DNA of 22,224 bases from a virus. Each line of letters starts with the position of its first letter. Within the stretch, counting starts at the first letter, position 1. This document shows positions 1 through 22,201 of the stretch, one piece after another. The notes under the pieces are model-generated. The model had not been told where the DNA came from, did not search any database, and was given only the letters and a program-made list of their open reading frames with translations. The position numbers were made by a program, and so were the translations under genes. The stretch is taken from positions 1-22,224 of the IMG/VR virus record IMGVR_UViG_3300020467_000060; one strand, given 5' to 3'.

Positions 1-48
1 GCGAATTATTAAGTTTTGATATATAATGGAAAAACAGAATACCACATA

Positions 49-216
49 ATGCTAAAAAATAATCCTGAGGAAAAACGCCCCATAGAAGTTGATACAGTAT
101 CTGGTGAGTATTATGTAAGATTACCTGAATGGGTCGTTAATGACCAAGGTTGGTTTGAAGATACAGAATTGAGGTTTAAAACAGATGGCGATGAACTCAT
201 TATCACAGAAGGTTAG
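49..216 (+). CDS. Small acidic protein, possibly AbrB-like
   Basis: This is a 55-residue protein read from the ATG at 49. The frame is open back to a stop at 10-12, with a TTG at 16 as an alternative start (66 residues). I prefer the ATG, although neither start has a convincing ribosome binding site. The body runs from a short polar N-terminus into YYVRLPEWVVNDQGWFEDTE and ends with a short strand (DELIITEG). The order strand, LPEWVV, GW-x-(E)GTEL-like turn, then a strand resembles the swapped-hairpin AbrB/SpoVT fold of small DNA-binding or antitoxin-like proteins. That similarity is pattern recognition only, and the basic residues expected of a DNA binder are few. The next gene starts inside its 3' end, so the two are probably translated together. 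The function is unknown. Confidence 0.55.
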   Translation: MLKNNPEEKRPIEVDTVSGEYYVRLPEWVVNDQGWFEDTELRFKTDGDELIITEG

Positions 217-379
217 TACATATCACATCTATCTAAGAGGAGAGTGTCTCTTCAAGGATCTTGATGAATATGAATTTAAGTTGATATGGGGAAGAATATA
301 TGAATCATACTTTAGAGATGAACTTACTTATGAAGAAATTCAACTTGATGATGGTATAACAGAAGATGCAAGTTATTGA
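185..379 (+). CDS. Small hypothetical phage protein
   Basis: This encodes a 64-residue acidic protein of unknown function. The start at 185 is supported by TTGAGG at 169-174, about 10 bases upstream; an in-frame ATG at 191 would sit too far from it. It overlaps the previous gene by 32 bases and the next by 14, which suggests translational coupling. The protein opens with a predicted strand (YHIYLRGECLFKDL), continues with an amphipathic helix (DEYEFKLIWGRIYESYF), and ends LTYEEIQLDDGITEDASY. I remember similar short proteins (YHIYL...CL...L...EEF) in cyanomyovirus genomes, but that recollection is not a search result. No catalytic motif, membrane segment or signal peptide is visible. Confidence 0.7.
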   Translation: MAMNSLSQKVSTYHIYLRGECLFKDLDEYEFKLIWGRIYESYFRDELTYEEIQLDDGITEDASY

Positions 380-860
380 TAATTTTTTAGATGAAGAATA
401 CTTTCAATATCTTTATGATAAAATAACTGATCAAAGGAATTTTGGATGGCAGTTTCAAAGAAAGGTTGCCACCCATGAAGAAGATGAGAATAGAAATCTA
501 AATCATTTTTACTGGGTACATAGTTTATATTATGATTACAAAGTAGAAAGTGAGCACTATGAAGACTTTCATCATTTGTTTAGGCAATTAAAGGTACAGT
601 TCTTACATAGGGCAAGATGTCTATTATTCGTGAATCAAGGAGTACAGCATATACATGATAGACATATTGATACACCATGTACTAGTAATACTGCGTTAAT
701 CTATATGAATACGAATGATGGGTTTACTGAATTTGAAGATGGTGAGAGGGTTGATAGTGTAAAAAATCGGTTGTTACTTTTTGATGGTTCAGTTCCTCAC
801 AGTAGCTCAACACCTACTAATACTAGAGAGAGAATGTTGATATCCGTAACCTATCTTTAA
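366..860 (+). CDS. 2-oxoglutarate/Fe(II)-dependent oxygenase family protein
   Basis: This is a 164-residue protein with the layout of a compact 2-oxoglutarate/Fe(II) dioxygenase. These enzymes use 2-oxoglutarate and oxygen to hydroxylate a substrate, often a protein side chain. The visible facial triad is H100-x-D102 (within RHIDTP) and a distal H145 (VPHSSSTPT). An arginine soon after (R154 or R156, in NTRERMLISVTYL) is placed to bind the 2-oxoglutarate carboxylate. The N-terminal MQVIDNFLDEEYFQYLYDKI is the usual opening helix of this family. The start at 366 overlaps the previous gene by 14 bases, with AGAAG immediately before it. The substrate cannot be told from the sequence. It is one of two such enzymes in the window, the other at 1976-2617, and they look only distantly related. 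Confidence 0.85.
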   Translation: MQVIDNFLDEEYFQYLYDKITDQRNFGWQFQRKVATHEEDENRNLNHFYWVHSLYYDYKVESEHYEDFHHLFRQLKVQFLHRARCLLFVNQGVQHIHDRHIDTPCTSNTALIYMNTNDGFTEFEDGERVDSVKNRLLLFDGSVPHSSSTPTNTRERMLISVTYL

Positions 861-861
861 G

Positions 862-890
862 TTGACATAGACTACATAATGGGATATAAT
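862..890 (+). promoter_or_regulatory. Consensus sigma-70-type promoter
   Basis: A perfect -35 box TTGACA (862-867) and a perfect -10 box TATAAT (885-890) are separated by exactly 17 bases, in the short gap between the first oxygenase gene and the glycosyltransferase-like gene. Transcription would start near 897, leaving a leader of about 17 bases before the ATG at 914. This is a host-polymerase promoter of the kind T4-like phages use for early genes, and it differs from the TATAAATA late boxes elsewhere in the window. Activity is inferred from the match alone. Confidence 0.85.
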
Positions 891-913
891 ATTGGTATAA
901 CATTACGTAGGTT

Positions 914-1669
914 ATGGCTAAAGGATTTACAGTTAAGGCGAAATCCCCTGTGGTAAAAAAAGAAGCAGAGTGGGATTACGAGAAAGCAAAAGAACTCATT
1001 AAAGGTAAAACAGTAGTATTCTGTTTACCTGGTCGTGGAGTTTCATATACATTTTTAAAAAGTTTTGTACAGTTATGCTTCGATCTTGTCCAGGCGGGTG
1101 CTTCGATACAGATCTCACAGGATTATTCCTCTATGGTGAACTTCGCTCGGTGCAAATGTCTCGGTGCGAATGTACTGAGAGGACCTGAGCAAAAACCTTG
1201 GGATGGCAAGTTACAATATGATTATCAATTATGGATTGATAGTGATATAGTATTCAACTCTGAGAAGTTTTGGCAAGTGCTATTAATGGATAAGGATCTT
1301 GCTGCTGGTTGGTATTGTACTGAAGATGGCAAAACCACCTCGGTAGCACACTGGTTAGAAGAAGATGATTTCCGCACCAATGGTGGGGTTATGAATCATG
1401 AAACCATCGAAAGCATCTCGAAAAGAAAGAAACCATTTACCGTGGATTATACTGGTTTTGGTTGGTTACTTATTAAGAATGGCGTATTTGAGCATGAAGG
1501 TATGCCTTATCCTTGGTTCGCTCCTAAGATGCAAGTCTTTGAAAGTGGCGAAGTACAAGATATGTGTGGTGAGGACGTTTCGTTCTGCCTAGATGCGAAG
1601 GAGGCAGGTTTTGAAATCTGGTGTGATCCTCGTGTTCGTGTAGGTCATGAGAAGACTAGGGTAATCTAA
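914..1669 (+). CDS. Glycosyltransferase-like protein (GT-A fold)
   Basis: This is a 251-residue protein that looks like a GT-A nucleotide-sugar transferase. After a lysine-rich start, strand KTVVFCLPGRGVS (32-44) opens the nucleotide-binding half. QLWIDSDIVF (105-114) carries the D109-x-D111 motif that in this fold holds the metal and sugar nucleotide. GEDVSFCLDAKEAGFEIWCD (219-238) matches the late acidic motif and following helix of such enzymes, with a candidate catalytic base at E220 or D221. TGFGWLLIKNGVF (180-192) is the usual acceptor-side strand. It would transfer a sugar to phage DNA, a virion protein or a host surface glycan; which one cannot be decided here. GTAGG lies only two bases before the ATG, a short spacing. 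A consensus promoter sits directly upstream, and the stop overlaps the next start (TAATG). Confidence 0.75.
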   Translation: MAKGFTVKAKSPVVKKEAEWDYEKAKELIKGKTVVFCLPGRGVSYTFLKSFVQLCFDLVQAGASIQISQDYSSMVNFARCKCLGANVLRGPEQKPWDGKLQYDYQLWIDSDIVFNSEKFWQVLLMDKDLAAGWYCTEDGKTTSVAHWLEEDDFRTNGGVMNHETIESISKRKKPFTVDYTGFGWLLIKNGVFEHEGMPYPWFAPKMQVFESGEVQDMCGEDVSFCLDAKEAGFEIWCDPRVRVGHEKTRVI

Positions 1670-1827
1670 TGACCAAATATAATATTCTAATTGATGGTAA
1701 AATTGCTTTTGAGGGATTAACCCAAGAGGAGTATTTTGATAAAACAGAGGATTTGGCACAGCAGTTCTATAATTGTGGTGTGCCCGATCCAACTTCTTTA
1801 AAAACTGAAATGATTGAGGATGACTAA
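1669..1827 (+). CDS. Small acidic hypothetical protein
   Basis: This is a 52-residue gene found by reading the gap after the glycosyltransferase-like gene. Its ATG overlaps that gene's stop (TAATG at 1667-1671), and its own TAA overlaps the next ATG at 1827. The protein begins MTKYNILIDGKIAFEGLTQE, followed by EEYFDKTEDLAQQFYNCGVP and an acidic tail ending MIEDD. The pattern is two short strands followed by a helix. I recall similar short ORFs in cyanomyoviruses near the baseplate genes. The precise overlaps with both neighbours argue that it is real. No function can be assigned. Confidence 0.75.
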   Translation: MTKYNILIDGKIAFEGLTQEEYFDKTEDLAQQFYNCGVPDPTSLKTEMIEDD

Positions 1828-1979
1828 TGGCAGTTAAAACAAAAATGGGTGGATTCGGTACTGGTGATTACATACAGGCAACCCCGAAGAAGACTCGACA
1901 AGGAACTGGAAAACATACGAAATACGCAGCATCGTCTCGTAACTCTGCTCGTAAAAAGTATAGAGGGCAAGGGAGATGA
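1827..1979 (+). CDS. Small highly basic protein
   Basis: This is a 50-residue, strongly basic and probably disordered protein with about 15 Lys/Arg and a single acidic residue. It begins MAVKTKMGGFGTGDYIQATP, continues with KKTRQGTGKHTKYAAS, and ends in the RNA/DNA-binding-like tail SARKKYRGQGR. The start overlaps the previous stop (TAATG), and the stop TGA (1977-1979) overlaps the ATG of the next gene (ATGA at 1976-1979). Composition suggests binding to nucleic acid or an acidic partner, or a small virion component; none of these is shown. I recall close analogues in cyanomyovirus genomes at a similar location. Its final codons form the left arm of a terminator-like hairpin. Confidence 0.75.
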   Translation: MAVKTKMGGFGTGDYIQATPKKTRQGTGKHTKYAASSRNSARKKYRGQGR

Positions 1980-1996
1980 ATGAATCTCCCTTTTTT
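1969..1996 (+). terminator. Intrinsic-terminator-like hairpin over a start codon
   Basis: AAGGGAGAT (1969-1977) can pair with ATCTCCCTT (1984-1992), giving a perfect 9-bp stem with a 6-base loop GAATGA. The stem runs into six T residues (1991-1996). This is the standard shape of a rho-independent terminator. It lies over the end of the basic-protein gene and the first seven codons of the downstream oxygenase gene, with the ATG at 1976-1978 inside the stem and loop. It could end the transcript from the promoter at 862-890, or act as an attenuator or translation block for the oxygenase. Confidence 0.7.
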
Positions 1997-2617
1997 GGTG
2001 TCCATCATGATAACTTCATATCTGAGTTTGAATCTAATCTTGATTGTGATCTTTTAGTTGATTATTATGAGCAATTAGTTGGTGCTGGAGCAGTAGGTCC
2101 TAGAAATAATCGAAATATTGTATCTGATGAGCAAGTTTCTCTGGAAAATATGCTATGTGTAGATGAACTTACTGTAAGTATAACAAGAGTTCTAACCGAT
2201 TGGCATTCCGTTGTATTGGCATGTGTTCGTGATTACTATAAAAAGTATGATATATTGAATACTCGTGCCTTTGAGTTTAAATACGCCAAGTTTCAGAAGA
2301 CTCGTCCTTCTCAAGGGTATCATATGTGGCATCATGATGCTGATCCAGAGGATCCTTATCGTAAATTAGTCACTTTATTGTACTTAAATGATAATTTTGA
2401 AGGTGGAGAAACTGAATTTTTGTATCAATCATGCCGTATTTCCCCTAAAAAAGGTAAATTCGTGATTTTTCCTGCTGGATGGACTCATACACATCGTGGA
2501 AACCCTCCATTAGGTGGAAATAAGTACATAATGACGGGTTGGGTCGAAGAATTTCCTACAAATAAGATCAAATTTCCCGATTTTGGGGAAGAAAGACCGC
2601 CTATTTTACAAAATTAA
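1976..2617 (+). CDS. Prolyl-4-hydroxylase-like 2OG/Fe(II) oxygenase
   Basis: This is a 213-residue protein of the prolyl-4-hydroxylase branch of the 2-oxoglutarate/Fe(II) dioxygenases. The iron triad is H119-x-D121 (YHMWHHDAD) and H173 (WTHTHRG). K183 lies exactly ten residues after the distal histidine (GNKYIMTGW), the position of the lysine that binds 2-oxoglutarate in prolyl-4-hydroxylases. The core strands LVTLLYLNDNFEGGETEF (131-148) and GKFVIFPAGW (160-169) are typical. The start at 1976 has AGAGGG (1962-1967) eight bases upstream, and no other start codon occurs in frame until codon 59. Its 5' end lies in a terminator-like hairpin. Marine T4-like phages often encode such enzymes near structural genes, and a virion protein target is plausible but unproven. 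Confidence 0.88.
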   Translation: MNESPFFGVHHDNFISEFESNLDCDLLVDYYEQLVGAGAVGPRNNRNIVSDEQVSLENMLCVDELTVSITRVLTDWHSVVLACVRDYYKKYDILNTRAFEFKYAKFQKTRPSQGYHMWHHDADPEDPYRKLVTLLYLNDNFEGGETEFLYQSCRISPKKGKFVIFPAGWTHTHRGNPPLGGNKYIMTGWVEEFPTNKIKFPDFGEERPPILQN

Positions 2618-2626
2618 AGAATTGAG

Positions 2627-2634
2627 TATAAATA
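2627..2634 (+). promoter_or_regulatory. T4-type late promoter box (gp25 unit)
   Basis: TATAAATA lies in the 44-base gap between the oxygenase gene and gp25. This is the -10-like late consensus recognised by the phage gp55 sigma factor in T4; cyanophage late promoters have been described as NATAAATA. Transcription would begin roughly 12 bases downstream, leaving a leader of about 10-25 bases before the gp25 GTG at 2662. It probably drives gp25, gp6 and the giant gene. Confidence 0.85.
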
Positions 2635-2661
2635 AAATGAAGTGATACTAAAATCCTTCAA

Positions 2662-3066
2662 GTGCTTACAGAACCACGCAAATCACGCTCGTTTAAAGAT
2701 ATAAGTTTGTCCTTCGTACCACATCCTGTTACGAAGGATTTGCCTGTCTTAACAAATGAACGTGCGATTATGCGATCTGTAAGGAATTTGGTGGAAACAA
2801 TACCTACAGAGAAGTTTTTTAACACTATTTTAGGTACTGATATACGTGACACACTGTTTGAAAACTATACAAACAGTACTGTAATGGTGATTAGGGATCA
2901 AATTAGAACAACTTTAAGAAATTTTGAACCAAGAGTAGAAAATGTTGAAATAGATGTTAATGGTCAACCCGACCTTAACGCATTTGAAGTGATTGTTTTT
3001 TATGATATTGTTGGTATCCCTTTACCACGTCAAGTATTCACCTTTCTTTTAGAACCAACTAGGTAA
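2662..3066 (+). CDS. 25: Baseplate wedge protein gp25
   Basis: This 134-residue protein is close in length to T4 gp25 (132). gp25 is part of the inner wedge core joined to gp6 and gp53, and is related to the TssE sheath-initiator component of type VI secretion. The hallmark EPR motif is present at E89-P90-R91 (RNFEPRVENVEI), after the long helix region RSVRNLVETIPTEKFFNTI (38-56). The chosen start is GTG at 2662: the frame has a stop at 2638-2640 and no ATG or TTG between. No clear Shine-Dalgarno is visible, so initiation is probably leader-dependent or weak. A late promoter box lies 28 bases upstream. gp6 begins three bases after the stop, matching their direct contact in the baseplate. Confidence 0.92.
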   Translation: MLTEPRKSRSFKDISLSFVPHPVTKDLPVLTNERAIMRSVRNLVETIPTEKFFNTILGTDIRDTLFENYTNSTVMVIRDQIRTTLRNFEPRVENVEIDVNGQPDLNAFEVIVFYDIVGIPLPRQVFTFLLEPTR

Positions 3067-3069
3067 GAT

Positions 3070-5007
3070 ATGCCATATACACAGTTTTCTGACCTTGATT
3101 TTGGTCAAATTAAAACACAAATACGAAATTATCTTCAATCAAACTCAAATTTTACTGATTTTGACTTTGAAGGATCAAATTTTTCAGTTTTAATCGATAC
3201 TTTAGCATATAATACGTATATTAACTCATTTAATGCTAATTTAGCGGTAAATGAGACCTTTTTAGACTCAGCAACTATAAGAGAAAACGTAGTTTCGCTG
3301 GCAAGAAACATAGGATATGTACCAAGATCAAAAACTTCATCAAAAGCAACTATATCGTTCCAAGTTGCAATTGATGATCCAACAGCATCTGTAACACATT
3401 TAAGTTTAAATAGGGGTTTAGTGTGTATTGGTACTGCTGCTGATACTTCATACAGGTTTTCAATCACAAGTCCTATAACTTCAAAGGTATATACTGATTC
3501 TAGAGGTCATAGGGTATCTGATTTTACTGACTTAGAAGTAACACAAGGAACATTTTTAACTAGTACTTTCCTTGCTCAAATACCTTCTGATCAAAAATTT
3601 ATCTTAGATAATTCAAGTATTGATACTTCAACCGTTAAAGTTACTGTAACAGGTAATGCTGTTGGTAGTATGGGTAGAGAATTTTCAAGAGTTGATAATA
3701 TTTTAAATTTAAATAAAGACTCAGAAATTTATTTAATACAAGAAATACAGGATGAAAAGGTTGAAATATTGTTTGGTGATGGTTTCTTTGGTAAACAATT
3801 AGAAAATAATGATCTTGTTTCAGTATCATATATTGTTAGTAATGGTCCAGGTAGTAATGGAGCAGAAGTATTTGATTTCCAAGGATCATTTACAAGACCA
3901 GATGGTGCTAGTATCAGACCTTCTAAGGTTGTAAACATAACAACCGTTGTACGTGCTTCAAATGGTTCTTTCAGCGAAGATATATCATCTATTAAGTATT
4001 TGGCTCCTAGACTGTATTCCGCACAGTACAGGGCGGTTACACCAAGGGATTATGAGGCAATAATTAAGACAATTTACCCTGCAACTGAATCAATCTCTGT
4101 TGTTGGTGGAGAAGAATTGTCACCACCAAGATTTGGTACGGTTCAGATCAGCATTAAACCAAAAAATGGTACTTATGTATCTGATTTTGATAAACAGCAA
4201 ATTAAAAATAAATTAAAGAGTTACGCTATTGCTGGTATTAATTCTGAAATTATTGATCTTAAAATGCTATATGTTGAGATTGAATCAACTGTTTATTATA
4301 ACACCTCAATTGTTAGTGATTCTAACACATTAAAACAGTTTATAGTCAATTCACTGGAAACTTATTCAGATACTGTAGATATTAATAAGTTTGGTGGTAG
4401 ATTTAAATATAGTAAAATTAATCAACTTATTGATAGAGTTGATGAAGGAATCACATCTAACATTACAAAAGTGAAGATTAGAAGAGATTTAAAGGCATTA
4501 ATTAATCAATTTGCCCAATATGAACTGTGTTTTGGTAATAGATTCCATATTAATCCAGAAGGATATAATGTTAAGAGTACTGGATTCTATATTTCTGGAT
4601 GGTCTAAAGTTGTTTATCTAACTGATATTCCAAATACCAATGATTCTGGTAAATTAGATGGTAGTGAAAAGGGTGTTATTTGTATCGTTTCTAAGGATAA
4701 TGATGATCAGATGAAGATTGTTGCCAAGGATGTTGGTATAGTTGATTATAAAAAAGGTGAAATTATACTTAATACTATAAACATAACATCTACAATTGCT
4801 GCGAATAATCTAATTGAGATTCAAGCGTTTCCTGACTCTAATGATGTGATTGGATTGAAGGATTTATACCTCAAATTTGATCCATCTAATAGTACGATAA
4901 ATATGGTTAAAGATGTAATTGCTTCGGGTGAAGATGTATCAGGCGTTGTATTCTCCAGAGATTATTACACTTCAAGTTATTCTAACGGAACACTAGAAAG
5001 AAAGTAG
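3070..5007 (+). CDS. 6: Baseplate wedge protein gp6 (baseplate J-like)
   Basis: This is a 645-residue protein, close to T4 gp6 (660). gp6 dimers form the continuous ring that links wedges and triggers sheath contraction. The signature N-terminal block is present: NFTDFDFEGSNFSVLIDTLA (27-46), then YNTYINSF and NETFLDSATIRENVVSLARN (61-80), then IGYVPRS. VEILFGDGFFGKQLENNDLV (231-250) is the standard baseplate-J strand and turn. YRAVTPRDYEAIIKTIYPAT (320-339) is another conserved block of the family. AGG (3061-3063) sits six bases before the ATG at 3070. It follows gp25 with a three-base gap, and the giant gp7-like gene begins one base after its stop. No truncation or frameshift is seen. Confidence 0.93.
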   Translation: MPYTQFSDLDFGQIKTQIRNYLQSNSNFTDFDFEGSNFSVLIDTLAYNTYINSFNANLAVNETFLDSATIRENVVSLARNIGYVPRSKTSSKATISFQVAIDDPTASVTHLSLNRGLVCIGTAADTSYRFSITSPITSKVYTDSRGHRVSDFTDLEVTQGTFLTSTFLAQIPSDQKFILDNSSIDTSTVKVTVTGNAVGSMGREFSRVDNILNLNKDSEIYLIQEIQDEKVEILFGDGFFGKQLENNDLVSVSYIVSNGPGSNGAEVFDFQGSFTRPDGASIRPSKVVNITTVVRASNGSFSEDISSIKYLAPRLYSAQYRAVTPRDYEAIIKTIYPATESISVVGGEELSPPRFGTVQISIKPKNGTYVSDFDKQQIKNKLKSYAIAGINSEIIDLKMLYVEIESTVYYNTSIVSDSNTLKQFIVNSLETYSDTVDINKFGGRFKYSKINQLIDRVDEGITSNITKVKIRRDLKALINQFAQYELCFGNRFHINPEGYNVKSTGFYISGWSKVVYLTDIPNTNDSGKLDGSEKGVICIVSKDNDDQMKIVAKDVGIVDYKKGEIILNTINITSTIAANNLIEIQAFPDSNDVIGLKDLYLKFDPSNSTINMVKDVIASGEDVSGVVFSRDYYTSSYSNGTLERK

Positions 5008-5008
5008 A

Positions 5009-5960
5009 ATGAGTATAGAATTTGATAAGAGAGTTCAAGTAAATAGGATTATTGAGAGTCAGCTACCCGAATTTGTGGTTGCTGATTTTCCATTAGCTAC
5101 AGAACTTTTAAAAACTTACTATATTTCCCAAGAAAATCAAGGTGCTAATGCAGATTTACTTGATAATATTGATCGGTATATTAAAGTTGACAATCTAGTT
5201 CCTGAAGTTATTACTGGAACTACTAATTTAACTGAAGAAGTACTCATAACTGATACTATAATTGAAGTTACTTCTACAAAAGGATTTCCTTCTTCATATG
5301 GTCTTTTGAAGATTGATGGAGAAATTATTACATATACTGGAAAAACAGATACTAGTTTTACTGGATGTATTCGTGGATTTAGTGGTGTAACTGGATATAG
5401 TGTTGGTATATCAACATCATTAGATCATGTTAACAACGAAAATCTAGTATTTGAGGATACTAATGCTTCTGGTCATGCCAATGAATCTATAGTTACTAAC
5501 CTTAGTGTCTTATTCTTACAAGAATTTTATAAGAAGATTAAAAAGACATTTTTACCTGGATTAGAAGATAATAAGTTTGCTGATGGTATTGATGTTGGTA
5601 ATTTTATAAAGAATGCTAGATCATTTTACCAATCAAAAGGTATTGCAGAATCAATTAGAATACTTTTTAAAGTATTATATGGTGTTGAAGCAGAAGTTAT
5701 AGATCTTGAAGAACGTTTAGTTAAACCATCAAGTGCTGAATATATTCGTAGAGAAGTTATTATTGCTGATGCTCTTAATGGTGAAGCTCAAAATCTAGTT
5801 GGACAAACAATATTTAAATCAACTGATTTAAGAACTAATGCTTCAGTATCAGAAGTTGAAGTTTTAACTAGAGATACTAAACTTTATTATAAATTATCTC
5901 TTTTTGTTGGTTTTAATGATAAAGATTTAATAGAAGGTACATTTACTATACCTGGTAAAA
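5009..5960 (+). other. gp7-homologous N-terminal domain of the giant protein
   Basis: Residues 1 to about 317 hold the only part of the giant protein that ties it to T4 gp7. An N-terminal helical segment (QLPEFVVADFPLATELLKTY, 18-37) and LFLQEFYKKIKKTFLP (168-183) lead into RSFYQSKGIAESIRILFKVL (204-223), YGVEAEV and LVGQTIF. T4 gp7 has the same order (RSYDFYSTKGIEASYKFLFK, then LVGQTIY). Between the two helical pieces, residues about 65-150 are an inserted unit, FPSSYGLLKIDGEIITYTGK followed by FTGCIRGFSG, a module I recall from other phage tail proteins. In T4 this domain is at the C-terminus; here it is at the N-terminus of the polypeptide. Confidence 0.8.
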
Positions 5961-8900
5961 CAAAGGTATTGGAACAAGTTGTTCCTGGTGAATCTATTGT
6001 TTCAGTAGATAGTACTATTGGATTTGGACAGACTGGTAACTTTACTGTAGAATATCTTAATGGTAATGTTGGGGTCGTTACTTATACCTCTAAGACAGTT
6101 AATCAATTCTTTGGATGTAGTGATATAACTGGTAATATTGGAATTTCTAGTGATTTAAGATCAACCGAAACTATATTTGGGTATGAAAATGGCGATTTAA
6201 GTAAGAGAGTTGATTTAAGAATTACTGGAGTAGTTTCTGATTTTGTTCCAGAATCTGATATAGCATTAATTTCAGAAAAACAAGAGATAACTGTAAAGAA
6301 TGTAGGTGAATATATTCAAAATCCATCAGAAACTACTCAATCATATAAACAAATATTTGCTAATTCTTGGATTTATAATACAAGTTCTAGATATGAAATA
6401 AATGGATCAATTAATAGTGGTACAACATCATTTACCTTTTTAAGTAAAATTGATAAGTCTAGTTTAAAGGTTGGTGATAGTTTTGATATTATTCGCAGAG
6501 GAACTAATATTAGAGTTGGTGGTGGTATAGTTAAGAGAATTGATAGTGATTATGTATTTACTGGAGAAGGTGTTAACTATATTGCTAATGAACCACATTC
6601 TTCTGTATTTTATGATATAAGAAGGAATTTAAGGAAAGCAAATTATGATACTGCAAATACTAATGCACTAAAGTTATCTGATGGTACTAATAAGATTATT
6701 GCGGATACTTTAAATGTTTATGTTGATAGTGATGATTTTGGATATGCTGCTTCTAACTCATTATCAAGTCATAAGATCAATGAGGAACCATTAACTGGCA
6801 CTATTCCCTCTGGAGCACCTCCTCATATACAAACAGGTACTATTAATGCTCTAACAGGCGTTGAGATTAATTTTACAGAGATTAAGTTTTCTGAGAAGGT
6901 TAAGTTCCGTACTGGAGATTCGATAATTTATACTTCTGACAAACCACTTCTTGGTTTGATTAATGGATCTAAGTATTTTGTTAAAGCAGATTCTACTGAA
7001 AAGGTTATAAGGTTATATGATACAATTAATGCGATTGAAAGAGATTCTGCTAAAGAATTTAATCAACCATCAGATCCAAATGCAACACATATATTTACAT
7101 TAGAAGATCATTACAATAAAGAAATAAAACCAAACAGTATTTTAAGAAAGTTTCCTCTTGGTCAAGATTTAAATATACCTTCAAAAGAGGAAAAACAATC
7201 TAAAAATATTGGATTATTGATTAATGGTGTTCAATTAAGATCTAACACCAATGATGATTTTATAACTTATGGTACAGTTGAAAAAACAGAAGTATATAAT
7301 TCTGGTGAAGGATATGATGTAGTTAATCCTCCTAAAATTAGAGTAGGAAATGCTAATACCTTTATAAAACCAGATGGAACTGTTGGTATTGGTACGACAG
7401 CACTTGTAGAACCAGTTATTAGAGGAAATATTAAGGAAATATTGGTAGATCCACAAGATTTTGATATTGATAATGTTTCTTCAGTAAGATTAACTGGTGG
7501 TAATGGTAAGGATTGTTTCTTACAACCAGTAGTTGGACCAAGATATAGAGAAGTTGAGTTTGATAGTAGAGATATATTCTTCTCAGGTGGATTGGATGTA
7601 CAAGAAGAGACAATAACCTTTAAATCTGAGCATAATTTTGTTGATGGACAATTAATTTATTATAATAAAAATGGTCAAGATCCTATTGGAATTACACCAT
7701 TTAAGTCCGCAGCAACAACTGTAACAGAATATCTTGTAAATGGAGCACCTTATTATGTTAAGGTACTTAATCCAAAGAGAATTAGGTTATTTAAGAGACC
7801 TGAAGAGGCTACATTTGGTGTAGCTGGTATTAACACTATAGGATTCTCTACAGCAACAACTGCTGCTGGTATTCACAAGTTTAGAACAGAATCTAAAAAT
7901 ACGTTAAATGCTGTAAAAGTTATTAATCCTGGTTATGATTATCAATATAGAAAATTACCAGTAAGACCATCTGGAATTTCTACTTCTTATGATACTATTA
8001 ATTTTGTAAATCATGGATTTAGAGATGGTGATATTGTTGAATATTCATCTGATGGAACTACTATTGAGGGATTGGATACCTCATTATCATATCTTGTTAT
8101 TAAGATAGATGCTAATTCCTTTAGATTGGCAGAATCTGATGCTGTTGGAGTGGCAAGAACCGATTTTGAGAGAGGAAAATATGTTGATTTGAGATCAACT
8201 GGAACTGGATATCAAATATTTAAATACCCTGATATTAAAATAGAAACCACTGTAAGTTTTGCCACAACAGTTACTGGATCATATGAAGGAAAAATAACTC
8301 CTATTGTTGAAGGTGAGATAATCGATGCATACACCTATGATAATGGTAGTAATTATGGTTCATCTATTATTAATCATATTATTAAACCATCCATTGAAAT
8401 AGTTAATGGAAAAAATGCTGAGATAAAGGCATTTATAGATGATGGTAAAATTTTAGATATTATTGTTCTTAATGGTGGTCAAGAATATAACTCATTACCA
8501 CATATAAAAATAGAAGGTCCTTCTGGTAATGGAGCAATACTAAGACCAATTATCTCTGATGGTAAATTGAATGATGTTATTGTTATTAATACTGGTATTG
8601 GATATTCTTCAACTGATACTAATGTTTATGTTGATCCTAGAGGAAAGAATGGGTTATTAAGTCCACAAATAAGAAGATTGGAGATAGATGATGTTCAGAA
8701 GAGAGGTATGAATATTCATTTAGAACCTAGTGGAGATGATGGTTTATTATATGAAGTAAAAGCATATGATCAATCATTAAGAGATGAATTTGGTGATTCT
8801 GGTATTAATAATGCTGGTATAGGTACTCATTCACCCCTAATAGGATGGGCATATGATGGAAATCCAATATATGGTGCGTTTGGATATTCTATTCCAAATG

Positions 8901-11900
8901 ATATTGGTGAAGTTAAGAGATTAAAATCTGGATATGTTAAAGATAACACTTGGTATGATCGTCCAGAGCAAGATTCTGGATATTTTATTGATGATTATAA
9001 ATTTGATGGTAGTGGTGATTTAGACAAACATAATGGTAGATTTTGTAAAACACCTGAGTTTCCAAATGGTGTTTATGCTTATTTTGCGACATTAGATGAA
9101 AATGAAAATCCACAATATCCATATTTTATAGGAAAAACTTATAGATTACCATTTATTACTGATAATCTTTCTTTAGATCATAAATTTGATTTTAATAATT
9201 CAACACTTTCTAGAAATACTTTACCATACAAAGTAAATGATAGATATGCCAATAATGACTTTATTATTGAGTCTAATGAAATTACTAAACAAAAATCAGT
9301 TATTGAATCTGTAACTAGGGGTGTTGTAGATACATTCCAAGTTTTAGATGGTGGACAAAATTATAAGGTAGGTGATTTCACTTCATTTGATAATGAAGGT
9401 ACTGGTGGTAGTGGTGCTAGAGGTCAAGTTGATCGTATTGTTGGTATTGGTGTTTCTAATATTAAGACCGAATTAACTACATTTGAGAATGCTACTCTCA
9501 TTTGGAAAGATGCCCAAACAGTTGAAGCACACTTTTTACCAAAAATTGAGTTAAATGATCAAGATACTGTATTAATTTCTGGATTAAGTGCTGCTAATTA
9601 CAAGTTAAACAACTCATTTAAGGTTGGTATTAGTACCGATATTATTGGATTAGCAAAGACAATGACTGTTAATAATAATCCAAATGGAAAAACTGAGGAT
9701 ATTTACGTAAATATTATACCAAATACTGTATCTGTTGGTGGTTCTTTACGAGTTGGTGATGAAACTCTTAAAGTATTAAACCTATATGGTTTAGAAAAGA
9801 TAATTAGGGTACAAAGATATGGAACAGGTATTGGACATACTTATAGTTCTGAGATAGATGTACTAAACAATAGAATAAGTATTCCTGTTAAATCTAATTA
9901 TTTTGATTCAAAATTAAATGACTTAGTACATTTTAATGGTCATCAGTCTGTAGGTTTAGGTACTACTTGTGGATCAGTAATTGATTATGTGTATGGTGAG
10001 ATAACAAATAATATAAATGTCCCTCAACAAAGCATTTACTTACCAAATCATTCATTTAGTAATGGGCAGAAAGTTAAATTATCAAAACCATTAACTGCTA
10101 CTTCATTCTTAGTTAGTAGGGATGATGATGCATCAAACCAATTCTATATTCCAGACCAATCAACCGCTATTTCAGAATTATATGTTGTAGATAAAGGTAC
10201 TGATTATATTGGTCTTGCTACTAATGTTGGTGCTGCCAGTACCGAAAGTGGATTATTCTTCTTTGGTAATGGTGATAATAATTATCAATATTTAATAGAA
10301 TCTGATCATGATCAGTTAACTGCTAATATTGATAGAGTAGTTTCTACAGTTACTACAAAAGTAGCACTGGCAAATACAACTACTCATGGATTAGCAGTAG
10401 GTGATCTAATTGATCTAGAGGTTGTTCCTAATATTGCTGTTGGTATTGGATCCACTGCTCCATTAACTGTTTCATTTAACGATGAACATCAGAAACTATT
10501 AATTAATGAAATTAGTTTCAATGCTACTGCAGTTGTATTAAACACTGATACAATTACCATACCTGATCATGGATATAAGACTGGTACTAAGGTATTTTAT
10601 GATAATCAGGAAATAATATCAGGATCTTCTTTAGTTGGTGGTCTTTCTGTTGGAGCATATTATGTCCATACAATTGACTCAAATACTATTAATTTGTGTG
10701 AAACATATAAAGATTCTATAGCAACTCCTCCTATAATAATAGATTTAACTGGTCAAGGTAATAATAAGCATACTTTATCATTAATTAACCCACCAATTAC
10801 AGTTGTTAAAAATTCAGATTTAACATTTGGAGTTGGTTCAACATCATTAGAGGATTATAAATTAAAATTCTTCTATGATAGAGAATTTAAGAATGAATTT
10901 GTAAACGCTACCAGTTATGACCCATTAGAATCTGTTCAAGCAGCATTTACTGTTGCTGGTGTTGGAACTGTTGGTGTTGGAACATTCTCATCTAGTCCTG
11001 TAGTTGGTGCTGCTGTATCGATTGGATTTAGTACTTCTGTTCCATCAGTATTATACTATGCTCTTGAGAAGAGTGGATATATTAGTACTGCTGATACAGG
11101 TGTATATAATTATTCAGAAATTAGATTTGTAGATAGTGCTTATAGTGGAGAGTTTAGAGTATTTGATGTTGATGACGAAACATTTAAGATTTCACCTAGA
11201 TCAGTACCTGAAGTATTAGAATATCATGATACTCAGTGTGATTTATTTGAATATTCTAGTAAGTCTGGAAATATAGTTGGACCTATTAAGTCTATAAAAA
11301 CAATTTCTGAAGGATTTAGTTATAAGAGTATACCTGGATTTACTTCTGTTACTAGTGCTAATGGTGAAAATGCTAATGTTGTAGCACTATCAACATCTAT
11401 TGGTAGAATTAATAACTTAAGAATTATTGATTATGGATTTGAATATTCTGCTGATAAAACTTTAAGACCTGAGGCATATATTTCACCTATTGTTAGAGTT
11501 GATGATTTAGATGTAATTGAGTCTATTAAAGTTATTAATCCTGGAGCAGAATATTTGAGTGCTCCTGATGTAATTTTATTCAACCCAGAATCTAAAAAGG
11601 TTGTTGATACTACTTCATTAATGGCAACTGTTCCTAATCAAGGAATATCTGAAATTAAAGTAATAGCACCAATTAAAGGTTTAGATTCTGTAAACCATAG
11701 AGTTATCACTATCAATAATTCTAATGGTATAGGAATTGTTTCTATGACCACAGATGGTACTGTTGCTAGATGTGTAATGGAAACACCAATCAATGGATAT
11801 GATGTTCCACCATTTGCTGCTGGTGATGAAATATTTGTTGAAGGTATATTAATGGGTTGGGAATCTGGTATTGGTACTCAGACTTCTTCAACTGCTGGTA

Positions 11901-14900
11901 TTTCTACAGAAGGAACGGGATATAACTCAGAAGATTATGATTATCAGTTCTTGAAGGTTAAATCTTATGATTCATCAAACCCAGATGTGCTGAAATTTGA
12001 TTTGGTTGGTTTAACTACAAATCCAGGAATTGCTAAAACATATCAGACTGGATATGCTAATATAGTTAATCGTAAGAATTATCCAGTATTTGAGACTGAT
12101 CAAAAGAGAGCAGAATTTACAATTAGTGAAAGTTTATTGGTAGGAACTCCTTTTATAAAAAGTGATCTTATTGTTACTGAAACAAGAGATGATTATATTA
12201 AAGTAGATGGTTTAGACAATCTTAGGACTGGGGATAGAATAGCTGGAGAATCTTCAGGAACTAGTGCTACTGTTGTTGGTATTGATAATCAATATGCTAA
12301 ATTTAAAGTTGATTATTCTAATAGACAAGATTATGGATGGATTGATAATACGGGTAAATTAAGTGACGATTTCCAAGTAACACCTAATAACGACTATTTC
12401 CAGAATTTATCATATTCTATTAAGAGTACAAAAACATGGGATGACTTTGTAGATCCTGTTAATAGGTTAGTTCATCCTTCTGGTCTTAAGAATTTTGCCG
12501 ATACTGTTGTTGAAACTACACTAGCAGGTGTTGGTATTGGATCTACATTCTTTACTACACCAACATTAGTTCTTGATGTTGTTGGTGAGAGAAGAGTCGA
12601 TACTATTAATGATTTTGATCTTGGTATTGATTTTGAACCAAGAGAATCTGGAAATACTCGTGATTCTAAGTTTGTTGATTTCCAAAATGCTAAATTAACA
12701 GATTATAGTAAGTGTAAGACAAATAGAGTATTGATACATGATGATATAAGTGGAAGATTCTCAAGTAAAGGAATACAGGATTTATTTACAGAAATAGAAG
12801 AACTTAATACAAATTATGCTCGTTATTTGGTTCAAATTGTTGATGCTGATACATTTGATATTCAGGTTAGTGATTTAATAGTATTAACTTCTACAGAAAA
12901 TGCTTATTTGATTGAGAAATCATCAGATTACTCTAATATGAAATTGGGTGATTTTTCTGCTGATGTTGATTACTTTAAGAGAAAAACTTTATTATTTACC
13001 CCAACAGATAAGTTTGATAAGGATCATGATATTAAACTCCTTAAGACTTCATTTAATACTGATAATATTACAGCTGGTACAAAAGAATTTGGGTCTGTTG
13101 ATTTAATTGGTAATAATGTTTCTGTTAGTGCTGGTCGAACAATGTTCTCAGCAACTATTAGTGGAACTACACTAACAACAACTGATTTTGATCTTCTTAG
13201 TCTTAAGCATGTAAATGGTCTTCCTACTACAAATTCTTTGGTCGGAATCGGTACTACAGTATCTGGTTTAGGTCTAATAAAGGATACTCTAGGTAATGAA
13301 CTTACTGAGATTGTAAGTATTGATAGTTCAAGTACAGCAACAATAAAGATCAATCCTGATACTACTCCAAATGCCCCTACAGTACCTTCTAGTTACACTA
13401 CACCTGTTACGGGTCAATTTGGATTTATCAACACTCCATACTTCGTTAACAACGGTGTTGGTGGATTAGATCCAGTACCAGTTCCTATTGGTGTTAGTAC
13501 ATCAAATATTATGGAATTTGCTGATACTAATTGTAATGCTTTCTATGCTAGTGTTGTTGCTAAGGATGATGTTACTGGAGAATTAGATTATACAGAAGCA
13601 ATTGTTAATGTTAATGGTAGTGATGTAACGATATCTCAACTTTATGCTGATTTAACTCAGACTTCTCTCAGTATTATTGATAATGGAACGGTTGGTATAT
13701 TAACCGCAAGTTATGATTCTGGTACTATTAAATTTGATTGTATTAATGAAAGGCATTCTACTATAAGATTAAGTACATCTGTTGTTGGATTAGGTACAAC
13801 TACTGCTGGTATAGGAACCTATAGATTTAACGTTCCTGGGCAACCAGAAGGGGCAGAAAGAACTGCTAGGTATGAATCAACATATAACACGACTGAAGTT
13901 GGTACAGGAGTAACTGTAGCAACAATTGATAGGACTATTGATAGTACTGTTAAATCTATTATTAAAGTTAGACAGGGTGATAAATTTGCTATACATCAAC
14001 CAATTCTAATACATGATCAGAATAATGATGCTATTACTGTTCAATATCCTCATATTGGTGAAGTTACTGGTTTAGGTACTTTTGGATCAGAAACAGATAC
14101 TCAAAATGTGAATTTAGTATTCTATCCAGATGATAGTGGGTTAGTTGAGGTTCAATCATATAACGAAGTCTTTAATACTATTAACGATTTTGCTAATGAA
14201 CCAGATGTTCTACAATATGGTCCTGTTACCAGTGATCTATTATTAACATCATATGATGGTATTAACGGAACAAGAGGTAATAAAGTTAATTTCAATTTAA
14301 CATATCAAGGTATTCCAATATATGTTAAGAAATTCAATCCTACAGACACTACAAGGGTTATAACAGATTCAACTCCAGGTGCTGGAACTACTTTTGCTAT
14401 ACCAAATCATTTCTTTAATACAAATGAAGAGTTAACTTATACACCAGAATCTACCTTTATTGGTGTTCCTCCTGTTTCAGTTGGAATTGCTGCTACATTA
14501 GATGCTGATGGTAGTTTAGTTACTGTCATGCCATCAAAAGTATTTGTTAAGGCAGGTAGTTCTGATAAATTCCAAATATATTCCAGAAAAGAATATATTG
14601 ATGTAGGAAATCCAATAACAATAACAACTAATGGTTCTGGTAATGCTCATAAGTTTGAGATGACCAAGAAATTAAGTAAAACTGTTATTGGTCTTGATGG
14701 AATTGTCCAACAACCAGTTACATATACTTCTATAAAGCATAGTTTACCTTCTAATATTGGTATCGGAATTTCTCAATTTGCTTTGAGTGGAATTAGCTCA
14801 GTTCAACCAAGAGATGTATTAAAGATTGGTAATGAGTATATGAAGGTTGAGCAAGTTGGATTTGCTACAGAAGTTGATGCGACAATTAACTCTAGTAATG

Positions 14901-17900
14901 ATTGGGGAAATATACCTGTAGTTAGGGTTAAGAGAGGTTCTTTAGGAATTGATGCTTCTACTCATAGTGCTGGAGACGAAGTAAGAATACATAGAGGTTC
15001 ATTCAATATTGTTGATAGTACAGCATGGTTCTTAGATCCACCTAAAGGTAATACTAGAACAAGAAGAAATGATACTAATATTCCTTATGTTAGAGCAGAA
15101 TATAGTGGTAGAACATTCTTAAGGACAAATTATGATACCAATATGGTATTTGATGATATTTCAGATTCCTTTACTGGAATAGGTAAGACATATACATTAA
15201 CTGTTGGTGGTGCTAATACTGTTAGTGGTGTTGGTGTTGGAAATGGAATTTTATTCATTAATGGGGTATTCCAGACACCATTAACTTTAAACAACTTAGG
15301 TAATAATTATGAAATAGAAGGAAATGCTACTGCTGGTATATCCAGTGTTACATTTACTGGAATTAGTTCTGAAAATGGGCAAAAAATTGAATCTGAGTTT
15401 GATATTAATCAAAATCAACTTCCAAGAGGTGGACTCATTGTTTCTATGGGATCAACAACTGGACTTGGTTATGCTCCTTTAGTTGGTGCTAGAGTTTTAG
15501 CAAAAGAAACCAATGGTGTACTTGATAGTATTGTAAGCATTGCCTCTTCAGTAGGTCCTATTGGTTCTGGTATTGAGACTGCTCATTATGATCCTGTTAC
15601 TGGAATTATGACAGTTACAACTAATACTGTTCATGGTTTTGCTTTAGAGAGTCCAGAAACAGTTAAATTAGAAGATCTACATTTTACTTGCCCAACATAC
15701 ACCGTTGGACAACCTACTGCTAATACAACATATGATGCAGCAACAGGTGATATGGTGATAGAACTTGCTGGTCATGGTCTTTCAAATGGCGATTCAATTA
15801 AATTAAAAGAAGAATCAATCACATTTAGTTGTGGATTTGGTGGTGCTTCTGGTTCTGCTGCTGAAAAGTCATATCCTAGAAAGACTGATCCTGCCTATGA
15901 CAGATATATGTACATATCTGATGTTACTGCTGATACTTTCAAAGTTAATGTATTATTTGGAGTAACACCTACCAATACAGACGCACACACCTTTGTTGGA
16001 GCAACTCCTGATTGTGTTCAATCACTAAACTATATTGGAGTTACTACATCAATATTCCAAAATCATGAAAGACCTATTCCATTGGTCGGAGTAACTTCAG
16101 AAAGGAGTTTCCAAGTTAATGTTGGTATTACTAGTATTCCTCATAATTATTTGAAAGGTGGTGCTGTATATGCGTTCTATGATGAGTTGACACCAGGATC
16201 TGGATATCGTGAACCAGTTTCTATTGGTGTTACTGATATCAATTATCTTCATAAGTTTGTAAGTGCTACTACAGATGCGATAACAGCATATACAGGATCA
16301 TTCATGGGTCAGAATCTAAATCCAACTTTAGCGGATTATAATTCTGAAACTGGTAGTTTATTATTCACAACAGAGGTACATGGAATACCAGAACCAGTTG
16401 ATCTTGATATTAATGATGCTAAGTATGATGCTAGAGTTGGTATTTTAACAGCATATGCTGGTACAAATTTTGATGTTAGTGGTGCTACATATGATCCAAC
16501 AACAGGTAATATGGTTCTTGAAATAGGAGATCATGATGTAGATACTAATGATAAAGTTAAGATTGCTCCAAATTCAATAACATTTAGTTGTACTTTTGAC
16601 AATCAGGTTGGTATAGATTCTCACAAATCATATCCTAGATCCTCTGGAACAGGTAATGCTGGTGGAGGTGCTGATCCAGCATATGATACTTATTTGGATG
16701 TTATTGCTGCTGATAAATTAGCTGGAACAATTACTGTAAAAGTATTAACAACAACACCATCAACAAATACAGATCCTCATTTATTCGTAAGTGCTACTGA
16801 TGGTTGTGTATTTGTTCCAAGAGTCTTTACTAATAATGAACAAGTTAAGTTTGTAGATGGAGCAATTACCTTCAAATGTGATATGGATGGTAATACTACA
16901 GAGCATTCTTATCCAAGATTAAGTGATCCAGCAAGAGATAAGTGGTTATTAGTTTCTCAAGCAAATAATAATAAGTTTGAGGTTCAGGTTGGAATGAGTC
17001 CATTAGTTGGTTGGACTCCACAATTAACTGGTACGAGTTATGATCCAAATACTGGATTAATGGTTCTTGAAATAGGAACTCATACTCTAAAAGCTGGTGA
17101 AAGAGTTAGATTAGATCCATTATCATTGAAGTTTAGTTGTGGATTTGGTGGTGCTACTGGTACTGCTGCTGAGAAATCATATCCAAGATCTACTGACCCT
17201 TATTATAATACTGCTATTCCAATTCAATCGGTAACAGAGACTTCTATTACCTTACAAGTATTGACTTCTGTACCTTCAACAAACACAGATCCTCATACAT
17301 TTGTCAGTGCTACTACTGGTGCTGTTAAGTCTGGTGGTTTCTATCCACATACTTATGTTTCATCTATAGCAAAGGGTGTGAGAGCAACAAAATCAATGAA
17401 GATTGCTACAAATTCACTAACCTTTAAGTGTTCTAAAGATAACTTCATTGGAAATCATACTTATCCAAGAACAACTGATCCAGCATATGATACATTCCTA
17501 CCTATTACTGGTGCTTCACAGAATACATTATTAACTAATATTGGACCTGGTGGTGGAGCAGGAACTGGAGCAGTTGTAACCGCAATGGTAGCACCAAACA
17601 GACATAAGTTTGTAAATGCTATTGGAACACACAAATATGTTGATTCTATAAGTGATGCTGTTACTGTTGCTGGTATTAAGAGAGATGTTAGTAATGCTGT
17701 TTATACTCCAAGTACAGGAGATTTCACATTAACAATCGGTAATCATAGTTTCACTACTAGTGATACAGTAACTATTGCTCCCAAAGCAATAATTATGACA
17801 TGTGATGCTGATTCTCATGGATCAAATCATGCTTATCCAAGACCAACTGATCCAGCATATAATACTCCTTTAGCAATTACTGCTGTAACTGCTCAAAAAA

Positions 17901-20569: not shown

Positions 20570-22201
20570 ATGCCAGCGATTGTTACTGACCAATTTAGAA
20601 TACTTAACGCTAGTAATTTTGTAGATTCTGTTACAAATAATAACTACTACGTTTTTATTGGTTTACCAAACCCAACCCAAACAAAAGAGGGTGGTGTTAT
20701 AGGGTATGGTAGATCAGAAACTTGGAATCAGTCTTCAGAAACACCTAGACCACTTGATAGTTTTTCCAGCAATGCTCATGTTGGAGATATTATGATGTTT
20801 GGTAAGAAAATACAAGCAAAGAATATAAGAAGAGTTATCAAGAGAATTGATTGGAAAGCTGGTGAAAGATATGAGATTTATCGTGATGATTATAGTCGTG
20901 AAAATCAAAGTCCAAATACTCAAGCAAATAAGCTATACAGATCCAGATATTATGTAATGAACTCTGATTACAAAGTTTATATTTGTATTGATAATGGTGG
21001 ATATGGTTCTAATACATCTCAGACTGCTAAAGGAAATGTATCTCAAGATGAGCCAACATTTACCGATTTAGAACCATCTAAAGCTGGTAGTAGTGGTGAT
21101 GGTTATTTGTGGAAATATCTATTTACAGTTTCACCTAGCGATATTATTAAATTTGATTCTACTGAATATGTTGCTGTTCCCAACGACTGGGAAACCAGTA
21201 CAGATCCTCAAATAAGATCAGTTAGAGAAAATGGAGATTCTATCTTAAATAATAATCAAATTAAGCATGTATATATTGAAAATGCTGGAAAATCTTATTC
21301 AAACTTAACTGGACAAGAGGTTAACATTGTTGGTGATGGAATTGGTGCTAAAGCAAGAGTTGATGTTAATTCTGATGGTAATATTACTGATATAACCGTT
21401 ACTTCTGGTGGTAAGGGATATAGTTATGGATTAGTTGATTTGGGTGCGGTTAATACCAATTCAGGTGGATCAAGTGCTAAATTAGTTCCCATTATTCCTC
21501 CAAGTAGAGGACATGGTTATGACATTTATCAAGAATTGGGAACCGATAAGATTTTAATTTATGCCAGATTTGATGATAGTACTAAAGATTTCCCAGTAGA
21601 TACTAAATTTGCTGTAGTTGGTATAGTAAAAAATCCTACTAAGATTGATCAAGTAACAGTCTTTAATGAAAATCAGTTTTCATGTTTAGATGCTATGTTA
21701 TTTAAAGATGATCAATTAAGTCAAGATCCAACTCAACAAGTAACAGGAAATCCACAAGTAGGTGAAGTAATTGAGCAAACACAAACCGATGCTTTGACTG
21801 GTGCTTCAGTTAAAGCAAGAGCATATGTTGCTTCATTTGATCAAGATACTAAAGTGTTAAAATACTTTACTGATAGATCATTAAATTATAGTGGATCTCA
21901 GGATCAAACAGATTATATTGGTATATCTACATTAGGTAGACATTATTCCTTTACTTCAACTGATGGTGTTGTTGAGGGTAAGAGTTCTGGATTTAAGGGT
22001 TATATCAATAATAACTATACTGGAATCACAACTAATCCTACTGGAAATAAGCAAGTTGATCTAGGAATGGCCTTCACAGAAGGGTTGGCAAAATCCGAGA
22101 TAAATAAAGGATCAGGGGAGTTGGTTTATATTGACCATCGACCATTGATTGCTCGAAATGAGCGACAAAAAGAAGACGTTAAAATCATCCTGGAATTCTA
22201 A
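20570..22201 (+). CDS. 8: Baseplate wedge protein gp8, enlarged
   Basis: This is a 543-residue protein homologous to T4 gp8 (334), a wedge dimer that bridges gp6, gp7 and gp10. Matches to T4 gp8 as I remember it are clear in order: IVTDQFRI (4-11), YGRSETW (46-52, T4 GRSEPW), VIKRIDW (89-95, T4 VIPRRDW), GDGYLWKYLFTVSP (176-189, T4 GDGYVWEYLFEIPP), TEYVAVP (198-204) and the C-terminal GELVYIDHRPLI...ILEF (516-543, T4 GEMIYMENRPPI...ILFTF). Residues about 225-500 are an insertion absent from T4. It contains two G-x-GY modules (ENAGKSYSNLTG and TSGGKGYSYGLVDLG) like those of the giant gene upstream. The start at 20570 follows a late promoter box; the ribosome site is weak (TTTAAG). Confidence 0.93.
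   Translation: MPAIVTDQFRILNASNFVDSVTNNNYYVFIGLPNPTQTKEGGVIGYGRSETWNQSSETPRPLDSFSSNAHVGDIMMFGKKIQAKNIRRVIKRIDWKAGERYEIYRDDYSRENQSPNTQANKLYRSRYYVMNSDYKVYICIDNGGYGSNTSQTAKGNVSQDEPTFTDLEPSKAGSSGDGYLWKYLFTVSPSDIIKFDSTEYVAVPNDWETSTDPQIRSVRENGDSILNNNQIKHVYIENAGKSYSNLTGQEVNIVGDGIGAKARVDVNSDGNITDITVTSGGKGYSYGLVDLGAVNTNSGGSSAKLVPIIPPSRGHGYDIYQELGTDKILIYARFDDSTKDFPVDTKFAVVGIVKNPTKIDQVTVFNENQFSCLDAMLFKDDQLSQDPTQQVTGNPQVGEVIEQTQTDALTGASVKARAYVASFDQDTKVLKYFTDRSLNYSGSQDQTDYIGISTLGRHYSFTSTDGVVEGKSSGFKGYINNNYTGITTNPTGNKQVDLGMAFTEGLAKSEINKGSGELVYIDHRPLIARNERQKEDVKIILEF
22099..22106 (+). promoter_or_regulatory. Possible late promoter box inside the end of gp8
   Basis: GATAAATA matches the relaxed cyanophage late consensus NATAAATA. 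It lies about 100 bases before the next gene, inside the gp8 coding region. It departs from the TATAAATA of the other two boxes at the first base. The placement before a gene start favours function, but a chance match is quite possible. Confidence 0.35.

Follow-up and report, generated by a model that had tools for sequence, protein, structure and literature searches.

Gene order at the phrog_516-oxygenase junction

The window, i.e. the whole stretch of DNA analysed here, is a 22,224-base IMG/VR virus record. Judged by gene order and matches, it groups with the T4-like marine cyanophages; closest to it are the records of the single-cell contig AG-345-F15 and of Prochlorococcus phage P-SSM2. 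The genes for phrog_1574, phrog_3252, phrog_516, an oxygenase and gp25 follow each other in this order and are succeeded by long tail genes. The following features make up the region:

862..890, plus strand: sigma-70-type promoter, perfect TTGACA-17-TATAAT (sequence scan; recurs in relatives)
914..1669, plus strand: phrog_1574 gene, product with weak similarity to phage glycosyltransferases
1669..1827, plus strand: phrog_3252 gene, 52 amino acids
1827..1979, plus strand: phrog_516 gene for a basic 50-amino-acid protein, stop codon TGA (1977-1979) at the top of the hairpin
1962..1967, plus strand: AGAGGG, Shine-Dalgarno-like, identical with Arg-Gly codons of the basic protein (phrog_516)
1969..1992, plus strand: hairpin with 9-bp stem and loop of 6 over stop codon and ATG
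1976..2617, plus strand: 2OG-Fe(II) oxygenase gene (PF13640, phrog_61), ATGA overlap with the phrog_516 gene
1991..1996, plus strand: U-tract of the putative intrinsic terminator, identical with Phe-Phe codons of the oxygenase
2627..2634, plus strand: T4-late-like promoter TATAAATA, opening the gp25 unit downstream of the oxygenase gene
2662..3066, plus strand: baseplate wedge gene gp25

A promoter had been predicted at 862-890 from the letters alone and is indeed present in perfect form. It recurs about 1.1 kb upstream of the oxygenase ATG in the related contigs L086, L094, L095, L096 and L098, and it probably drives the unit with the hairpin at its end. The assignment of the oxygenase is based on its match to PF13640 (E = 3e-14). 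Most of the window is occupied by an open reading frame of 5,175 amino acids (5009-20536) that matches the 15.6-kb gp7 gene of P-SSM2 in position and length. The late-promoter core ATAAATA occurs four times in the window (2628, 4897, 20542 and 22100), compared with about 18 occurrences expected from shuffles; two of these cores reside directly upstream of structural genes, namely gp25 and the gene at 20570, and the motif seems to be avoided in the rest of the window.

Hairpin and start codon of the oxygenase gene

The hairpin is built from a 5' arm AAGGGAGAT (1969-1977), the loop GAATGA and a 3' arm ATCTCCCTT (1984-1992), with Ts at 1991-1996. It holds the last codons and the TGA of the basic protein together with the ATG and the first codons of the oxygenase, and the stop and start codons of the two genes, which run in the same direction, overlap in ATGA (1976-1979). 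A stable, G/C-containing stem with six Ts directly 3' corresponds to the make-up of an intrinsic terminator. The two outer A-U pairs use the first two Ts, leaving a core of 7 bp with four G-C pairs, and given this core and the six-U run, termination at the hairpin may be moderate. The fold has a calculated energy of -13.2 kcal/mol (z = -4.4) that was equalled by none of 200 shuffles, and the element ranks top among the terminator-like sites in the first 12 kb of the window. A search of positions 1-4000 of the window against Rfam 15 yielded no match to a known structured RNA above the gathering score. Taking all fetched loci together, 132 distinct terminator-like sites were counted. Eight of these hairpins contain the start of an open reading frame of at least 90 amino acids, six of them being phrog_516/oxygenase junctions, and the other two are located in L217 and L356.

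The original prediction had described most of this arrangement, i.e. a 9-bp stem with a six-T run over the ATG at 1976, the oxygenase codons for MNESPFF within the hairpin and the overlap of the ATG with the stop codon of the basic gene, and all of these statements proved correct. The start codon was also held to be hidden in the stem, and this agrees with a pairing probability of at least 0.98 for A1976 and U1977 in predicted mRNA folds. The hexamer AGAGGG at 1962-1967, which had been regarded as a good ribosome site, is present as described; it need not have evolved for the oxygenase start, because it doubles as the Arg-Gly codons of the phrog_516 gene and also occurs in phages lacking the oxygenase.

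The oxygenase gene exhibits dN/dS values of 0.07-0.23, indicating that it is under purifying selection and in use. As the ATG at 1976 lies 5' of the U-run, oxygenase mRNA carrying it must be a readthrough product, and with the gene under purifying selection, readthrough would have to happen often enough to matter. A wrongly assigned start codon was considered and rejected: no in-frame ATG, GTG or TTG is present from 1979 to the conserved HHDNF motif, and ATG and frame are kept in all close relatives, including one with a 3-nt loop deletion. A programmed frameshift joining both proteins was likewise dismissed, as CAA GGG AGA does not constitute a canonical slippery heptamer on inspection (the only means applied here). 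In P-SSM2 (L001, AY939844.2), the phrog_516 gene at 3403-3588 is unannotated and the oxygenase gene PSSM2_108 probably begins 42 nt earlier than annotated, with an ATG (3546) that is part of a TAATG overlap.

Occurrence of the hairpin with and without the oxygenase gene

Hairpin and U6 are found over the ATG in 14 further contigs (L085-L098) with the same arrangement as the window, with loop lengths differing by 3-nt changes that preserve the frame. The pair formed by columns 19 and 34 is changed from G-C to A-U in L091-L093, such that GGG/CCC becomes GGA/TCC. This exchange is silent in the basic gene and replaces Pro by Ser in the oxygenase. A check of related phages for compensating synonymous changes had been part of the original prediction, and its outcome favours the prediction, if thinly: one compensatory change and the conservation of rare codons were found, and it is only for the basic gene that this change is synonymous. 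The observed count of pairs changed on both sides was matched in 92 of 500 shuffles, so it is not unusual on its own; covariation of the stem taken alone is weak and was used in combination with the codon evidence only.

As to the codons, the stem features GGG in 27 and GGA in 3 of 30 sequences, AGA in all 30, TCT in 29 and TCC in 1, and CCC in 27 and TCC in 3. GGG and CCC are rare, accounting for 3-12% of Gly and 3-10% of Pro codons, respectively, in these genes, and are nevertheless retained in 27 of the 30 sequences, the remaining three being those with the paired exchange. Other codons for identical residues match between lineages in just 51-64% of cases on average. The 30 sequences are related and recombine, and codon retention therefore carries no formal probability. 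Part of the complementarity of the stem is provided by conserved residues, i.e. Gly-Arg in the basic protein and Ser-Pro in the oxygenase.

The U-run differs between oxygenase-bearing lineages. It is intact in the clade of the window, interrupted in a second lineage (L207-L213, UUUAUU, CCCTTTATT) and absent from a third one comprising L268-L275 and L002 (CCCGAAATC), with the stem being kept in all of them. The stem of L273 appeared broken at first sight, a possibility ruled out by refolding, which yielded a shifted stem of -10.4 kcal/mol. In a tree calculated from the basic protein and gp25, the clade of the window forms one starred group (97/94), and L374, an oxygenase-less contig, is sister to L210 (99/88). 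The ATGA overlap is present in 30 of 30 hairpin-bearing oxygenase loci examined. An overlap of the same kind is found without any hairpin in L001, L121, L122, L126, L127, L145-L147 and L150-L152; comparison of the loci thus shows the overlap to be more general than the hairpin, which is confined to some lineages. A hairpin at every oxygenase junction is ruled out by P-SSM2-like and other loci that have the overlap only.

The junction behind phrog_516 was inspected in all fetched loci. Considering those in which gp25 resides at most 400 nt downstream of phrog_516, a terminator-like hairpin is located near the phrog_516 stop codon in 38 of 52 distinct cases, compared with 2% for random positions drawn from the same loci, and the stem sequences at these junctions are many and mostly unrelated. 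A pattern scan of IMG/VR furthermore revealed the hairpin type of the window, including U6, behind phrog_516 in the oxygenase-less contigs L352, L361, L373 and L374. Here, the frame opened by the ATG in the hairpin runs for no more than about 13 codons before a stop, directly followed by the late motif TATAAATA and gp25; in L352 and L374 the motif follows soon 3' of the hairpin. Contigs without phrog_516 that matched the hairpin pattern (e.g. L348, L351, L367 and L378) were excluded as unrelated terminator-like sites. It is thus well supported by comparison that the hairpin acts as an intrinsic (Rho-independent) terminator of the phrog_516 unit just upstream of the late gp25 unit, as had been proposed for 1969-1996, because it occupies the same position in many phages, is formed by many unrelated stems and occurs in the same form without the oxygenase. 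L016 represents a separate phrog_516 lineage with its own terminator AAGGGAGGTAATACTCCCTTTTTT across the stop codon (1096-1120), apparently of independent origin. In L360 and L366, a small basic open reading frame likewise ends with YRGQGR, and AAGGAAGATGAAAATCTTCCTTTTTT spans its stop codon; the frame is not identified as phrog_516 by tblastn and may be a remote relative or convergent.

L374 and L361 were compared with the oxygenase-bearing L382 (contig of L210). Flanking regions share 93% identity upstream and 96% downstream, the latter over up to 11.8 kb, and the oxygenase gene is missing as a clean block with MNQSPFFNDH left as a remnant of its start. Since the N-terminal codons are common to both forms, we favour loss of the oxygenase gene over gain, without considering it proven. 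Within this lineage, the U-run reads UUUAUU in L207-L213, where the oxygenase gene follows, and UUUUUU in L374 and L361, where it does not, which would fit a terminator weakened in the presence of a downstream gene.

Proposed ribosome gating and competing explanations

Our preferred reading, to which we assign a probability of roughly 0.58, is that the terminator of phrog_516 has merged with the start of the oxygenase gene and that the ribosome at UGA gates both transcription and translation of the latter. Position, conservation and independence of the terminator from the oxygenase are shown by comparison, and the role of the ribosome and the regulatory outcome are what we infer from the geometry and from work on other systems. 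RNA polymerase arriving at 1991-1996 would tend to stop. As the stop codon sits inside the hairpin, a ribosome terminating at UGA should cover the stem and keep it open, such that polymerase could continue. That ribosome could then reinitiate at the AUG of the ATGA overlap and would in doing so also lift the block on a start codon whose A and U are predicted to be paired. Translation of the basic gene would then control the oxygenase at both levels. Ribosomes ending at UGA appear to be the likeliest cause of readthrough. That coupled translation opens the stem, as originally suggested, is plausible and agrees with published data for E. coli, where a stop codon 5 bp upstream of terminator tR2 lowered termination from about 90% to less than 10% and where uncoupling of translation abolished this repression (PMC4824070). 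A more elaborate version is put forward as a tentative extension that we consider possible. It envisages a two-step switch, in which a ribosome finishing the basic protein would first prevent termination and then restart at the AUG concealed by that stem; upstream translation would set oxygenase output at both levels, and gain or loss of the U-run would tune the switch in individual lineages.

Elements of this arrangement have precedents. The tR2-type terminator of E. coli (PMC4824070) shares with it a G/C-containing stem, a U-run and an adjoining stop codon, and weakening by terminating ribosomes is therefore expected here, too; the phage hairpin differs in that it also holds the start and first codons of the next gene, which makes every mRNA for that gene a product of readthrough. 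ATGA overlaps are associated with translational coupling by termination-reinitiation, a documented route (PMC6728339), and the 4-nt stop/start overlap and a Shine-Dalgarno-like sequence within the upstream gene are common to both cases. The phage overlap differs in that it lies inside a terminator hairpin; related phages have the overlap without the hairpin. Ribosome-controlled attenuators such as pyrBI similarly feature a translated upstream open reading frame ending in a terminator, and readthrough could be decided by the position of the ribosome. The phage upstream frame, however, encodes a widely conserved 50-amino-acid protein and not a dedicated leader peptide. With UGA (1977-1979) inside the hairpin, the geometry allows attenuator-like control. 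While ATGA coupling, ribosome-controlled attenuation and terminators close to stop codons are already known, the present arrangement is unusual, and no earlier report of the same arrangement in cyanophages was found in the literature searched, which was covered in part.

The main alternative is a passive, leaky terminator that just ends the upstream unit, with low amounts of oxygenase arising from constitutive readthrough and an overlap that is historical and involves no gating by ribosomes. Terminators are common at the end of phrog_516 whatever comes next, the hairpin is unchanged after loss of the oxygenase gene, and six Us behind a 7-bp core could leak unaided. Still, we judge this explanation rather unlikely, given that the stop codon is located within the hairpin, where translation in E. 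coli interferes with termination, and that oxygenase-bearing lineages with a broken or missing U-run retain the stem. This retention, in L207-L213 with UUUAUU and in L268-L275 and L002 without any U-run, would be explained by a stem whose main role is to conceal the AUG, leaving initiation of the oxygenase to coupled ribosomes alone, with a U-run that is secondary and lineage-dependent. Almost complete pairing of A and U of the AUG is predicted, and in T4-related phages, hairpins cover the site at which translation of gene e begins (PMC3014915). Precedence of translational control appears slightly less probable again than simple leakage, as phages without the oxygenase have retained, next to the hairpin, a perfect U6 that has no evident use in translational control, and many oxygenase loci with the same type of overlap have no hairpin.

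The likeness to gene e (PMC3014915) comprises a T4-like phage and a hairpin closing a translation start; in contrast to gene e, the junction studied here lacks a conserved late promoter in the stem region and is followed by a U-run. A mechanism like that of gene e, in which the DNA encoding the 5' arm includes a late promoter and late mRNAs are consequently devoid of the stem, was rejected, as TATAGAG (1959-1965) is replaced by TACAAAG or TACAAGG in L091, L092, L096 and L098; a clear late motif is found downstream of the oxygenase gene (2628). Chance complementarity of Gly-Arg and Ser-Pro codons that entails no RNA function could invoke the conservation of these residues in their proteins and the single compensatory event. 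It is nevertheless highly improbable when set against the retention of rare synonymous codons on both arms, the single exchange in which a change on one arm is answered by a matching change on the other even though it alters a residue, and the conservation of the hairpin where no downstream gene is present.

For annotation, a predicted terminator in the start of a gene need not imply that the start codon is wrong. Natural pairs with and without the oxygenase gene and the intact, interrupted or absent U-runs make the arrangement directly testable. Whereas terminators are normally pictured between genes, the one described here is part of a protein-coding sequence, forms the beginning of the following gene and is conserved as such in phages that infect abundant marine cyanobacteria. 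If ribosome gating holds true, these phages would possess a minimal device of about 30 bases that links two levels of expression.
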